Assembly: GCA_002839185.1 (NCBI GenBank) | Contig: PGXO01000004.1 | Location: 62,001 to 126,000 of the forward strand | Reading direction: 5' to 3' | DNA length: 64,000 bases | DNA from: Synergistetes bacterium HGW-Synergistetes-1 | Lineage (GTDB): Bacteria > Synergistota > Synergistia > Synergistales > Synergistaceae | In this document: piece by piece, positions 21,086-40,163 of the stretch | Layout of the letters: every line of letters starts with the position of its first letter | How positions within the stretch are numbered: position 1 is the stretch's first letter | Position numbers and translations under genes: made by a program | Notes under the pieces: model-generated | The model's database searches: none | Told to the model about the DNA's origin: nothing | What the model saw: the letters and a program-made list of their open reading frames with translations, nothing else

Positions 21086-21101
21086 TCAGGATGTGTTTTA
21101 C

Positions 21102-21341
21102 ATGATAATAAACGCTACTACTGCGAGAGATAACCTGTTTGGATTGGTAGACGAGGTGCTCACTTCACAGGAACCAGTCTACATAACAACCAAGAGGGAG
21201 AATGTCGTTGTGCTTTCTGAAGAGGATTATAGATCCATATCTGAAACGCTCTATATATTTTCTCTTCCTGGAATGAGGGAGAAGATTTTAGCGGGTGGGG
21301 CAATACCGTTGGGTGAATGTGTAGAGCTTGACGATGACTGA
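21102..21341 (+). CDS. Antitoxin, Phd/YefM family
   Basis: A 79-residue antitoxin. The N-terminus IINATTARDNLFGLVDEVLTSQEPVYITTKRENVVVLSEEDY is the dimerising, DNA-binding part of the YefM/Phd family; the acidic C-terminus (ECVELDDD) would bind and neutralise the toxin. The start at 21102 is preferred to an upstream GTG at 21093. The 3' end overlaps the toxin start by 8 bases, the usual arrangement that couples synthesis. Confidence 0.9.
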   Translation: MIINATTARDNLFGLVDEVLTSQEPVYITTKRENVVVLSEEDYRSISETLYIFSLPGMREKILAGGAIPLGECVELDDD

Positions 21342-21600
21342 TTGGAAGGTAGTATATACCAGGCAGGCGGTCAATGACAGAGAAAAAGCATATCTTGCTG
21401 GAGACAGAGAGAAAATCGTTTCTATCCTCTTTGTTTTAAAAGGAAATCCTTTTGCTCCTTATCCGCCTTATGAAAAGTTTTGCGGAGACCTTGAAGGATT
21501 TTATTCCAGACGAATAAATCGTCAGCACAGAGTTGTATATCAGGTATATGAAAAAGAAGAGACAATAAAAATTGTCAGCATGTGGCTCCATTACGATTAG
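21334..21600 (+). CDS. Toxin, YoeB/Txe family mRNA interferase
   Basis: An 88-residue RelE-fold ribosome-dependent endoribonuclease. Family hallmarks are DWKVVYTRQAVNDREKA at the N-terminus, NPFAPYPPYEKFCGDLEGFYSRRINRQHRVVYQV in the middle and the C-terminal SMWLHYD, which matches the YoeB end (xxHY). Catalytic-type E, R and H/Y residues appear intact, so it is probably active. It overlaps the antitoxin. The pair lies at the end of the AT-rich patch after ssrA. Confidence 0.9.
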   Translation: MTDWKVVYTRQAVNDREKAYLAGDREKIVSILFVLKGNPFAPYPPYEKFCGDLEGFYSRRINRQHRVVYQVYEKEETIKIVSMWLHYD

Positions 21601-21644: not shown

Positions 21645-21673
21645 TTGACATTTATGTCAAGAGTAATTAAAAT
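21645..21673 (+). promoter_or_regulatory. metA promoter with palindromic operator over the -35
   Basis: A consensus TTGACA (21645-21650), 17-base spacer and TAAAAT (21668-21673) precede the metA leader. The -35 is the left half of an inverted repeat TTGACATTTATGTCAA (21645-21660), 7-bp arms around TT. This is the shape of a repressor-binding site; it does not resemble the MetJ box. Transcription would start near 21680, leaving only about 24 bases before the leader ATG. Confidence 0.7.
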
Positions 21674-21703
21674 TTCCGGAAACTGGACAAAGGAGGAAGC
21701 GCC

Positions 21704-21796
21704 ATGTCGATGAACAGTTATACGATGATGCTAATGTGCTGCATGATGATGCGCGGGAGTGCCTTTGGAGTTTATAACGGCAGTTCGCGGCCCTGA
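21704..21796 (+). CDS. Methionine-rich leader peptide of metA (30 residues)
   Basis: A 30-codon frame starting MSMNSYTMMLMCCMMMRG, with 8 methionines, six of them in codons 8-16, and two cysteines. It has a consensus AGGAGG 7 bases before the ATG, a strong promoter just upstream, and ends at a TGA about 32 bases before the stem of an intrinsic terminator. This is the architecture of ribosome-mediated attenuation, as in the his and trp leaders: with Met-tRNA scarce the ribosome would stall in the Met run and terminator folding would be prevented. It precedes metA, the first step committed to methionine, so the codon content matches the pathway. Assignment is inference; the peptide itself matches no family I know. 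Confidence 0.75.
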   Translation: MSMNSYTMMLMCCMMMRGSAFGVYNGSSRP

Positions 21797-21831
21797 TGCG
21801 TCGCGAGATCCGAAAAAAAACTACCAAGGCA
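21760..21831 (+). promoter_or_regulatory. Candidate antiterminator pairing in the metA leader
   Basis: UGCCUUUGG (21760-21768), just downstream of the Met codon run, can pair with CCAAGGCA (21824-21831), 8 bp with one bulged U. The right arm overlaps the base of the terminator stem by 3 bases. A separate 6-8 bp hairpin at 21784-21807 surrounds the leader stop codon. These pairings are by eye; the overlap with the terminator is short, so the exact switch is uncertain. Confidence 0.4.
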
Positions 21832-21860
21832 GTCCATTTTTCGAAATGGGCTGCTTTTTT
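21829..21860 (+). terminator. Attenuator terminator in front of metA
   Basis: A perfectly paired 11-bp stem GCAGTCCATTT/AAATGGGCTGC (one G-U pair) closed by a TTCG tetraloop and followed at once by six T. It lies between the leader peptide stop and the metA start (21894), so it would stop transcripts before metA unless prevented from forming. Confidence 0.9.
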
Positions 21861-21893: not shown

Positions 21894-22841
21894 ATGCCTA
21901 TTAAGATACCGGACAGTCTTCCGGCAACACAGACACTTTTGAATGAGAATATTTTCGTTATGCATGAAGTGCGCGCAGCAAAGCAGGATATACGACCGCT
22001 CCGGGTCGCACTGCTGAACCTTATGCCGACAAAGATCGAAACTGAGACGCAGTTCGCGCGCCTGCTGAGCAATTCGCCTCTTCAGGTCGAACTTACACTT
22101 CTTCAGACCGCGACATACGAGGCGAAGAACACGAGCCGTGAACATCTGCTGGCCTTTTATGAAACATTTGAAGATGTGAAAGAGAGAAAGTTTGACGGAC
22201 TTCTTATTACAGGCGCGCCTGTTGAACTGATGGAATTTGAGGATGTGGAATATTGGGATGAACTGTGCAGGATAATGGAGTGGAGCAAGACGCATGTCTA
22301 CAGCACCCTCCACATTTGCTGGGGAGCTCAGGCGGCGCTCTACTATCATTACGGGATAAAAAAGTATCCCATGGCCGAAAAGCTTTTTGGGGTATTCCCT
22401 CATGAGGTCGAATACAAAAACTCGATGCTTTTCAGGGGGTTCGATGATGTATTCATGGCACCCCATTCCCGCCACACAACGATACACAGGGAGGATGTCG
22501 AAGCGGTGCCTGAGCTGCAGATACTGGCTTCTTCGGAAGAAGCCGGAGTATACGTGATAAAGACAGAACAGGGCAAACAGATATTCATAACCGGACACTC
22601 CGAGTACGACGCGCTCACCCTTGAAAAAGAATATCTAAGGGACAAGAATGCGGGTCTGCCGATCGAGGTCCCGAAGAACTACTACCCTGATGACAACGAC
22701 ACAAGGAAGCCTCTGGTGACGTGGAGGAGCAGTGCCAATCTTCTTTTTTTCAACTGGCTGAATTATTTTGTCTATCAAACAACGCCATTTGAGCTTGATG
22801 CCATCGGTACCAGCAGGGAGAATGACTGGCTGGATCAGTAG
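21894..22841 (+). CDS. metA: Homoserine O-acyltransferase MetA (predicted acetyl-CoA using)
   Basis: MetA activates homoserine by O-acylation, the first dedicated step of methionine synthesis. The 315-residue product has the typical [11 protein letters not shown] start, [18 protein letters not shown], the catalytic cysteine Cys142 in [10 protein letters not shown], and the GHSEYDA histidine/glutamate segment. Residue 111 is Glu (TGAPVE), the residue tied by published work on the family to acetyl-CoA rather than succinyl-CoA use; E. coli has Gly. So homoserine O-acetyltransferase is predicted. The ribosome-binding site AGAGGGGG lies 8-9 bases upstream. Expression appears to be set by the operator, leader peptide and terminator upstream. 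Confidence 0.95.
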
Positions 22842-35074: not shown

Positions 35075-36528
35075 AGAGAGAGTCTGTTATCGGTCTTGAG
35101 ATACACCTTCAGCTGAAGACGAAGACCAAACTTTTCTGCAGCTGTTCCAGCGACTACATCGGAGCCACTCCAAACACCAATGTATGTCCTGTATGCCTTG
35201 CAGTTCCGGGAACACTCCCGATACTCAATGACCATGCTGTGGAGCTTGGTGTGAAGATAGGACTTGGACTTCATTGCTCGATATGCGACAACACCAGGTT
35301 CCACAGGAAGCATTATTTCTATGCGGACCTGCCCAAAGCGTACCAGATCACACAGTACGAACATCCTATAGCCGTGGGGGGCTATGTCGACATTTTTGCA
35401 GACGGCAAAGAAAAGAGGATAAGGGTCCACCATCTGCACCTTGAAGAAGATGCGGGCAAGCTTGTACATCCCACCTCAGACGGACGCCTTACAGGAGCCT
35501 CTTATTCACTCGTTGACTATAACCGCGGAGGAATGCCGCTTTCCGAGATCGTTTCGGAACCCGACATGAATTCATCAGAAGAGGCAATAGCGTACATAAC
35601 ACGGATAAGACAGCTGGCAAGGTATCTGGATGTATCAGACGGAGAGATGGAGTCAGGTTCACTAAGGGTCGACGTAAATGTCTCGCTCAGCAAACCGGAC
35701 GGCAGCCTTGGTACAAGAGTGGAAATTAAAAACGTAAACTCACTCAGATCCATAGAGCGGGCACTGGAATATGAGATAGCACGCCAGAACAAAGTCCTTG
35801 ACGAAGGCGGACGTCTTGTGCAGGAGACGCGGCTCTGGGACGATGTCGCTGGTGTGACAAGGTCGATGAGGAGCAAGGAGGGGGAGAGGGACTACAGGTA
35901 CTATGTGGAGATGGACCTGGCCCCGATATCAGCAGATCCTGAATATGTGCAGAAGATAAGGGAGAGCCTTCCTGAGATGCCATGGGAGAAACTTGACAGG
36001 TTCATAAGGGAATATTCCGTATCTCTGGAAGAAAGCCTGCAGCTGACAGAACAGAAGGAGACCGCGGACTACTTCGAGGCATGTGTATCGGAGGGAGCCC
36101 CGCCTTCAAAATGTGCCAACTGGATGCGCATGGAGGTTCAGAGGATATTGCATGACCTTAGCATAGGGATAAACGATTTTCCCGTCCCTGCTTCGGAACT
36201 TGGAAAGCTTATAATCAAGGTGGAGAAGAGAGAACTTTCCAACACTCAGGCAAAAGACGTTCTTGCGGTGATGGTTGAAAAAAAGATGTCTCTAAAAGAG
36301 GCTATCAGACTTTGCGGAGTCTCAGACGGCAGAATCACAGGTCCTGCCCTTCGGGATGTCATCAGTAAAATCTTCGAAAGCGAACCGGAAGCAGTTGAGA
36401 CTATTAGGGCAGGAAACGACAAGAAGGGCGCAAAGGTGAAATTCCTCCAGGGGCTTGTAATGAGGGAGACAAGAGGATCTGCCGACCCTGCTGAGGTGGC
36501 GTCGCTTGTAAATTCAATGCTGAATTAA
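35071..36528 (+). CDS. gatB: Aspartyl/glutamyl-tRNA amidotransferase subunit B
   Basis: GatB phosphorylates and amidates the mischarged Glu or Asp on tRNA. The 485-residue product shows IGLEIHLQLKTKTKLFC with zinc-site cysteines, NVCPVCLAVPGTLP, RKHYFYADLPKAYQITQY, and a C-terminal YqeY-like tail domain ending LVNSMLN. The ATG follows an AAGGAGG site within gatA. A terminator follows the stop codon. Confidence 0.97.
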   Translation: MKRESVIGLEIHLQLKTKTKLFCSCSSDYIGATPNTNVCPVCLAVPGTLPILNDHAVELGVKIGLGLHCSICDNTRFHRKHYFYADLPKAYQITQYEHPIAVGGYVDIFADGKEKRIRVHHLHLEEDAGKLVHPTSDGRLTGASYSLVDYNRGGMPLSEIVSEPDMNSSEEAIAYITRIRQLARYLDVSDGEMESGSLRVDVNVSLSKPDGSLGTRVEIKNVNSLRSIERALEYEIARQNKVLDEGGRLVQETRLWDDVAGVTRSMRSKEGERDYRYYVEMDLAPISADPEYVQKIRESLPEMPWEKLDRFIREYSVSLEESLQLTEQKETADYFEACVSEGAPPSKCANWMRMEVQRILHDLSIGINDFPVPASELGKLIIKVEKRELSNTQAKDVLAVMVEKKMSLKEAIRLCGVSDGRITGPALRDVISKIFESEPEAVETIRAGNDKKGAKVKFLQGLVMRETRGSADPAEVASLVNSMLN

Positions 36529-36532
36529 AACT

Positions 36533-36568
36533 AAAAGGGTGAGGATGAGTCTGTCTTCACCCTTTTTT
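36533..36568 (+). terminator. Intrinsic terminator after gatB
   Basis: AAAAGGGTGA pairs with TCACCCTTTT (10 bp) and the 3' arm runs into six T. It closes the lysS-ligA-gatCAB run. Confidence 0.9.
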
Positions 36569-36581
36569 GTACAGTCGGAGA

Positions 36582-38952: not shown

Positions 38953-40110
38953 ATGAAGGTCTCAAAACAAGTCCTGCTGGTATTTCTTGCCTATTACGGC
39001 ATCAACTGCCTTTCAAACGTCTATTTTGTTTTCGGTCCCTTTTACAGCGCATCGGGAGCATCTCCGAGGGCGGTAGGGCTGTTTCTCAGTATCTTCTACA
39101 TGGCTATGATAGTCTGCAGGCCGCTTGGCAGCTGGACTATGGAGAGACTTGGGATAAGAAGGGCACTTATAGGGAGTTCCATCATCTCTGCCGCTGCAGC
39201 CGCGGGGATAGCCCTGTCTCTTTCAGATCCGGCGATACTTCTTATTTTCAGGGCCATCTCCGGAATAAGCGCAAGTGTTTTTATAGTTGCAACTATTGCA
39301 TATCAGTCGATGATACTGGACGCGAGGTCGAGAGGTATTGGTTTTGCTCTTTTTACGACCGGTTCTATGCTTCCCATGGCGACGATAGTTCCTCTGTCGG
39401 AATTTCTTCTGAAAATGGGACATTCAAATTATTATCTCTGGCTGCCGGTACTCGTCGCTTTTATCTGCCTTGCAATAAGCCTTGGTGTAAGAGACATTTC
39501 GGCAGAGACTCAGGAGAAGCCTGTCTGGGGGACTTATAAAAACATGCTTTGCTGTCCCGGGGTGAAGACTCTTTATCTTACAGCTTTCCTCATGTCCCTG
39601 GCCGATGGTGCGACACTCTGCGCTGCGGCGCTGGCAGAGGACAGGGGAGTCCCGGTCTCATGGTTCATGATTTCAGTAGCAGTTGCCGCTGTGATCATCA
39701 GAACAGCCGGGTTCAGAACGATGGACAATGTTCCCAGGATCCTACTTGCTGCACCTGCAGCGGGACTTATGGGGGTTTCTCTGCTGTGTCTGTCTTTCAG
39801 CTCCAGCTGGATCTCTTTTGTTACTTTTGGTCTGGCCTTTGGTTTTGGGATAGGGGCAGGGTTTCCTACGGACCTATCAATAATCGGAGATTTGCTCTCC
39901 ATTGAATACCACCCTAAAGCGACAGGCTCACTGCTTCTAGCAATAGATCTGGGGTGGGTCATAACGCCTCTTATCTTTGGATTAATATCGCCCCTGCTCG
40001 GAGCAAGCGGAGCATTTCGTCTTATAGGTATCCTTGTATTGGTAGGTTCTTCAGCGATGCAGTACTTCTGCTGGATGCCTCTCCGCAGAAGTCTTAAGGA
40101 ACAGGCGTAA
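38953..40110 (+). CDS. Major facilitator superfamily transporter
   Basis: A 385-residue, twelve-helix MFS protein. The loop after TM2 (about residue 60) has RPLGSWTMERLGIRRALIGS, the MFS motif A region. No substrate can be assigned. The start ATG has CTGGAG about 9 bases upstream. The gene has its own promoter and a strong shared terminator with the convergent nfnAB operon, so it is a single-gene unit. Confidence 0.88.
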   Translation: MKVSKQVLLVFLAYYGINCLSNVYFVFGPFYSASGASPRAVGLFLSIFYMAMIVCRPLGSWTMERLGIRRALIGSSIISAAAAAGIALSLSDPAILLIFRAISGISASVFIVATIAYQSMILDARSRGIGFALFTTGSMLPMATIVPLSEFLLKMGHSNYYLWLPVLVAFICLAISLGVRDISAETQEKPVWGTYKNMLCCPGVKTLYLTAFLMSLADGATLCAAALAEDRGVPVSWFMISVAVAAVIIRTAGFRTMDNVPRILLAAPAAGLMGVSLLCLSFSSSWISFVTFGLAFGFGIGAGFPTDLSIIGDLLSIEYHPKATGSLLLAIDLGWVITPLIFGLISPLLGASGAFRLIGILVLVGSSAMQYFCWMPLRRSLKEQA

Positions 40111-40142
40111 AAAAGACCGGGCCCTCTCGGACCCGGTCTTTT
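40111..40142. terminator. Bidirectional terminator between the MFS gene and nfnB
   Basis: AAAAGACCGGG pairs perfectly with CCCGGTCTTTT over a 10-base loop, with A-run and T-run on both sides. It can stop transcription from either strand. Confidence 0.92.
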
Positions 40143-40163
40143 AGTTATGAGCTGATTCTTTAC

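Follow-up and report, generated by a model that had tools for sequence, protein, structure and literature searches.

The leader of metA in the 64-kb stretch of DNA analysed here (the window) is very probably a transcription attenuator of the ribosome-mediated kind, with charged elongator Met-tRNA as its signal and metA as its target, and a member of a phylum-wide family that recurs at metA, metQ, metNIQ, metY and metX. At the level of sequence, we could establish its anatomy, the conservation of its reading frame, its recurrence at methionine genes and, in the family of transporter leaders, the covariation of both antiterminator and terminator.

We further think it probable that the Synergistota employ one leader scaffold, made of a codon run, a Gly-Ser(-Pro) antiterminator block and a terminator, as an interchangeable aminoacyl-tRNA sensor. 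Its methionine regulon would comprise metA, metQ/metNIQ, metY and metX; ten loci at which the leader stands in tandem with a SAM-I riboswitch would open only when SAM and Met-tRNA are both low; and methionine would have, in this family, its first well-supported case of leader-peptide attenuation, in which initiation with fMet-tRNA must go on as elongator Met-tRNA is exhausted.

Anatomy of the metA leader

The features of the region are collected in Table 1. The original prediction of a 30-codon frame with a ribosome-binding site and eight Met codons proved exact to the base, the Met codons being at positions 1, 3, 8, 9, 11, 14, 15 and 16 and Cys codons at 12 and 13. The predicted terminator between this ORF and metA, with its 11-bp stem, UUCG loop and six U, was recovered as well, and the hairpin was computed at -18.2 kcal/mol. 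The competing pairing, proposed to join 21760-21768 with 21824-21831, is real and longer than had been claimed, as RNA duplex prediction gave 13 bp between regions 2 and 3 (about -18.4 kcal/mol). In the predicted folds, CAAAGG of the Shine-Dalgarno (SD) segment (21688-21693) could also pair with CCUUUG (21762-21767), a pairing denoted 1:2.

Table 1. Features of the metA leader region, in window positions
Feature	Position	Strand	Description and basis
Sigma-70-type promoter	21645-21673	+	TTGACA-17-TAAAAT; consensus scan, 11/12 matches
Shine-Dalgarno of leader ORF	21689-21697	+	AAAGGAGGA, 6 nt 5' of ATG; read from sequence
Leader peptide ORF	21704-21796	+	MSMNSYTMMLMCCMMMRGSAFGVYNGSSRP*, 30 codons; sequence and ORF translation
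Putative Met-codon sensor run	21725-21751	+	codons 8-16, MMLMCCMMM
Region 2, antiterminator 5' arm	21756-21770	+	RNA duplex with 21821-21835
Hairpin spanning leader stop codon	21784-21791 / 21800-21807	+	predicted folds; inside antiterminator loop
Region 3, antiterminator 3' arm	21821-21835	+	overlaps terminator 5' arm
Intrinsic terminator (regions 3:4)	21826-21860	+	11-bp core stem 21829-21839/21844-21854, UUCG loop, U6 21855-21860
metA, homoserine O-acyltransferase	21894-22841	+	proposed regulated gene; Pfam HTS, E 2.7e-141

The promoter, which the original prediction did not mention, predicts a transcription start near 21680, and a similar arrangement, TTGACT...TTAGAAT, occupies the equivalent place at two related loci (L004 and L005). 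With at least four Met in ten codons, the metA leader is the sole SD-preceded short ORF of its kind in the window. None of 60 dinucleotide shuffles gave an ORF with at least five Met, or one with at least three Met followed by a terminator. By NCBIfam, the metA product is an acetyltransferase-type MetA, scoring above the cut-off of that model and below that of the succinyl model.

At gathering score, the Rfam matches in the window were tmRNA and tRNA alone, with no S-box, SAM-II or other riboswitch and no T-box at metA; the metA loci of the genus gave zero Rfam matches up to E 1. R1, a covariance model built from transporter leaders without any metA leader, gave the metA leader a weak score (24.5 bits; E 1.6e-5 for the window), and a terminator-only match followed closely at 23.9 bits. 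Two matches to the leader covariance model were set aside: that at 36468-36569 is the terminator after a gene, and that at 40107-40146 takes in no more of the model than its terminator.

Judged by eye, other leaders also have GC-rich inverted repeats surrounding the stop codon. Directly 5' of the leader promoter lie two overlapping small genes (21093-21341 and 21328-21600) that, again by eye, have the look of a YefM/YoeB-type toxin-antitoxin pair.

Methionine leaders and the shared scaffold in the Synergistota

The proposed check of metA upstream regions in relatives was carried out on Synergistaceae metagenome genomes, the closest named relatives compared. The Met-rich frame, Met run, SD and terminator are kept in four other species of the genus (G006, G007, G008 and G009; loci L002, L004, L005 and L006), with the peptides MSKNSYTMMLMCCMMMRGSAFGVYNGSSRP, MNKKSGNNTLMCCMMMRRSAFGVYYGSSRS (two genomes) or MKINKSGNNMLMCSMMMRRSAFGVYYGSSRS. 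This is the opposite of the outcome that would have spoken against the original prediction, a loss of the frame where relatives retain the terminator. All metA leaders of the genus retain MCCMMM or MCSMMM, and the other leaders retain MMC. The metA genes of more distant genera are without such a leader; at L007 and L008, the sequence 5' of metA resembles the coding sequence of another gene. At metA loci fetched from other phyla, the detector (SD, Met-rich ORF and terminator) found no Met leader with a terminator, and absence outside the Synergistota is only indicated.

In other families, a pattern search over 188 Synergistota genomes recovered leaders of MMMC type, followed by terminators, ahead of MetQ genes; matches inside long ORFs, of transporters among others, were rejected as coding sequence. 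We then considered as much as 4 kb of sequence 5' of each of 80 MetQ genes, a span that takes in operons with metQ as third gene, whose leaders were among those missed by 1.5-kb flanks. On this set the strict detector reported 44 leaders in the expected orientation and 0 on the other strand, and R1 placed a Met leader in 52 of the 80 regions. The window's own genome carries a MQHNTLFGIMCMMMCGMGGSSPEMVGA leader before metQ (contig C5) and a MLINNIGINNMMMCMYTRGSSPDLAGA leader before metN-metI-metQ, the Met ABC transporter operon (C15). In other genera, MMMC leaders precede metY, for O-acetylhomoserine sulfhydrylase (L350, L351, L352, L361 and L362), and metX, for a homoserine acyltransferase (L363). 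The identities of metA, metQ, metN, metY and metX rest on Pfam and NCBIfam, and the regulatory Met codons match these downstream functions.

The transporter leaders share the consensus ...MMMC(M)xx-GSSP/GSPP/GGPP-xxxG(A)-stop, followed after about 20 nt by a terminator. As for the original prediction's suggestion that Cys codons might add sensing of sulfur supply, 48 of 52 distinct leaders have a Cys codon after a Met pair of the run, and the metA leaders contain MC as well. The N-terminal part is not conserved and varies in length, with extra Met codons at varying in-frame positions. The metA leader is far from this consensus. It shares its SD context, AAAGGAGGAAGCGC, with L203, the metQ leader in the window's genome, and its MMMRG recurs in two metQ leaders (L299 and L300), which suggests that it descended from a metQ-type leader. 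The metY leader has decayed in the window's genus (L345/L366 and L378-L383): in the window's genome the Met run is out of frame, and the leader is near-intact in G012 and lost in other members of the genus.

Near their metNIQ leaders, two genomes from a single genus have cobalamin riboswitch matches (L243, 1933-1995, minus strand; L247, 2214-2322, plus strand), in both cases on the strand opposite to the leader.

The same scaffold also bears other codon runs, in cases read from about 20 inspected model matches rather than from a systematic count. A Thr run (TITTMTTCGTPPG) stands before hom, the homoserine dehydrogenase gene, and a Thr and Met run (AMTMTSGDPPG) before aspartate kinase. Val, Leu and Ile codons precede ilvN (VVVVRIISSGSPEMAGA; LVLVLVLLISSGSPEVADA in the window's genome), IIIIIINAAPPRRNGA precedes a 2-oxoacid:ferredoxin oxidoreductase gamma-type gene (POR), and a Phe and Tyr run (FFEYYYASEG) precedes a paaK-like gene. 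That the codon run follows the pathway is the strongest argument for the sensing of charged tRNA, as opposed to a peptide or a ligand.

Among individual cases in the window's genome, a leader MRIDSLIRDIFSLVLVLVLLISSGSPEVADA with a terminator lies directly 5' of ilvN (C2:119167-119242, minus strand; L367), a branched-chain attenuator on the same scaffold. Six consecutive Ile codons, in MSYKSMMDQNIIIIIINAAPPRRNGA, precede a POR gene (C12:44421-44528, minus strand; L368); this leader is attenuator-like, and the gene it precedes may serve fermentation rather than biosynthesis.

SAM-I (S-box) riboswitches, RF00162, are present in 113 of the 188 Synergistota genomes and were not found in the window's genome. 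At gathering score, they occur in 14 of the 80 MetQ upstream regions, in 5 of them together with a Met leader, and nine MetQ copies without a Met leader have a SAM riboswitch instead. By comparison of coordinates we identified ten tandem loci (G069, G070, G077, G081, G095 twice, G160, G161, G163 and G185), in which the SAM aptamer comes first and the Met leader directly 3' of it; at L083 and L084 a second terminator, GGTCTCTTCCTCGATTCCGGGGAAGAGACTTTTTTT, stands between the two. Such tandems would be natural two-input gates, separating the sensing of SAM from that of Met-tRNA.

Antiterminator pairing, mechanism and alternative readings

In nearly all transporter leaders, the pairing partner of the terminator 5' arm is the block of Gly-Ser(-Pro) codons. 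Because one helix is out of register between leader classes in the all-family alignment (A1), we assessed covariation by re-pairing permutations and within a single class. Across the transporter family, cognate region 2:3 duplexes had a mean energy of -21.2 kcal/mol, compared with -14.8 kcal/mol upon random re-pairing and -18.6 ± 0.4 kcal/mol upon re-pairing within groups of similar leaders; 0 of 10,000 permutations reached the cognate value under either scheme. In A3, an alignment of one leader class made without structural information, 86.7% of the antiterminator cells pair, against at most 61.6% in slid registers, and both the percentage paired and the covariation score lay above all 500 shuffles. 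The terminator of the transporter family covaries likewise.

Across classes, a change in the wobble base of the Gly codon goes with a change in the terminator arm (GGC with GGGCC or GAGCC, GGU with GGGACC, GGA with GGAUCC or GGGUCC, GGG with GGACCC). This covariation holds between classes and not inside the single class aligned (class B), where the base is unpaired in 10 of 16 rows, mostly as A-C. The leader SD can also pair with region 2 (a possible pairing 1:2; mean -17.7 kcal/mol), and the cognate combination beats within-group re-pairing in all but 4 of 10,000 permutations. The expectation of a covarying antiterminator was thus borne out in the transporter family; for metA the pairing itself was found, its four distinct leaders being too similar for covariation to show among them.

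From these features we infer ribosome stalling, a choice between termination and read-through, and tRNA charging as the signal. RNA polymerase would start near 21680 and a ribosome would begin the metA leader ORF. When Met-tRNA is scarce, the ribosome would stall in the Met run (codons 8-16), leaving region 2 free to pair with region 3, so that no terminator would form and metA would be transcribed. When Met-tRNA is plentiful, the ribosome would reach the stop codon (21794-21796) and mask or melt region 2, in which case regions 3 and 4 would form the terminator and transcription would end before metA. In a leader that remains untranslated, the SD could pair with region 2 (1:2), an arrangement also expected to favour termination.

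A stalled ribosome covers some nucleotides downstream of the codon at which it waits. In most transporter leaders region 2 starts about 11-14 nt past the last Met codon, just outside the footprint of a ribosome stalled in the Met run, and with about 31 nt of the ORF still to come. In the metA leader the distance is 4 nt: a stall at codon 16 would cover part of region 2, and stalls at codons 8-14 would leave it free. Methionine starvation also puts initiation at risk, through fMet-tRNA, and this could blunt the response. The weak R1 score of the metA leader and the decayed metY leader of the window's genome likewise count against the attenuator reading. The layout of ribosome-mediated attenuation, put forward for methionine in the original prediction, is supported by its conservation in the genus, its recurrence at Met genes and the covariation in the transporter family.

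The leader peptide might act in its own right, the MMMC...GSSP peptide itself stalling the ribosome on SAM or Met in the way of TnaC, SpeFL or CGS1, rather than through a shortage of Met-tRNA. We consider this unlikely. The residues around and after the Met run are strongly conserved, with a near-invariant Cys and a C-terminus rich in Gly, Ser and Pro, as such an arrest would have it; however, RNA pairing accounts for the C-terminal part, as the codons conserved there are also those of the antiterminator arm and have coevolved with the terminator. Moreover, the variable N-terminal part and the different codon runs on the same scaffold, each fitting its downstream pathway, do not fit an arrest peptide.

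It is very unlikely, too, that AUGAUGAUGUGC forms part of a riboswitch or some other translation-independent, ligand-binding RNA in which the ORF is incidental. Such an RNA would account for the nucleotide-level conservation of AUGAUGAUGUGC and region 2, and S-box RNAs do serve the same genes in the same phylum, but it would leave unexplained a well-placed SD, a frame that stays open through the Met run despite the length variation upstream, extra Met codons that change position and not frame, and a codon identity that changes with the regulated pathway. Rfam (E up to 1) gave no family on the leaders at the metA, f4 and f5 loci, separate upstream S-boxes in f4 being the sole matches. Finally, the two small genes that end at 21600, 5' of the element, could lend it the role of their plain terminator, with a fortuitous Met-rich ORF and a metA promoter further downstream. 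We give this hardly any credence, given the strong promoter between these genes and the leader, the retention of the ORF in relatives and its recurrence at Met genes elsewhere, and the failure of all 60 shuffles to reproduce the element.

Relation to known regulatory systems

An attenuator responding to charged Met-tRNA, the reading we favour, would resemble trpL, hisL, thrL, ilvL and pheL of E. coli in having a short SD-driven ORF with runs of regulatory codons, and would share with these classical systems the alternative 2:3 and 3:4 pairings and an intrinsic terminator ahead of a gene from the pathway in question. Unlike them, the Synergistota element uses Met as the regulatory amino acid, the transporter leaders place the 5' arm within a conserved Gly-Ser(-Pro) codon block, and the family would control transporters as well as enzymes. 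Like the Met leader, the S-box (SAM-I, RF00162) controls Met genes by transcription termination, in part the same genes in this phylum, but it senses SAM through an aptamer. The Met T-box, similarly, senses the charging of Met-tRNA, but without a leader peptide.

Several other amino acids have established leader-peptide attenuators, and Met is a notable gap in the series, perhaps because every leader starts with Met and starvation should hit both initiation and elongation. A coevolving family that spans a phylum suggests that evolution solved the problem of a Met attenuator, and raises the question of how initiation is kept up.

The original prediction named no established leader-peptide attenuator for Met, a statement to which one qualification applies. 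In the open-access literature, the sole proposal we found is 'metL' of Streptomyces lividans TK24, annotated before metNIQ as a leader peptide with Met (and Cys) codons (PMC8079986). Its leaderless peptide, MSTTSDRTPATEATTTPGARCMCRRMCAF, has two internal Met codons, and by the authors' own account there is no typical Rho-independent terminator (PMC8079986). Both metL and the Synergistota leaders are thus Met-codon leaders at a Met transporter operon; metL is without a terminator and, as far as the text of PMC8079986 on this leader goes, comes with no comparative support. The Cys leader peptides of Actinobacteria similarly carry a run of sulfur amino acid codons in a short ORF (Seliverstov et al. 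2005, PMC1262725); unlike the Synergistota Met leaders, they came without a terminator in that survey, which also reported no conserved RNA structures at Met operons.

For the Synergistota, the open-access literature yielded nothing on leader-peptide attenuators and one relevant paper on the regulation of amino-acid genes, concerning HisR (PMC9413887). The kind of attenuator is known; its Met specificity, its lineage and the tandem SAM and Met-tRNA design appear to be new, provisionally so because most subscription journals lay outside the scope of the search. For annotators of this little-studied phylum, the family offers a route to its Met, Thr, branched-chain and aromatic regulons.

Some further leaders were noted along the way. 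Attenuator-like elements stand before phenylacetate-CoA-ligase-like genes at L354 and L373, the L354 leader having FF and YYY codons. At L357 and L359, MMMR- or MIMR-type leaders with a DPPG scaffold precede a conserved gene of about 418 aa, whose product at L357 had no Pfam or NCBIfam match. An aspartate kinase gene (L358) lies near it on the same contig, and the gene is possibly an unrecognised member of the Asp family pathway.
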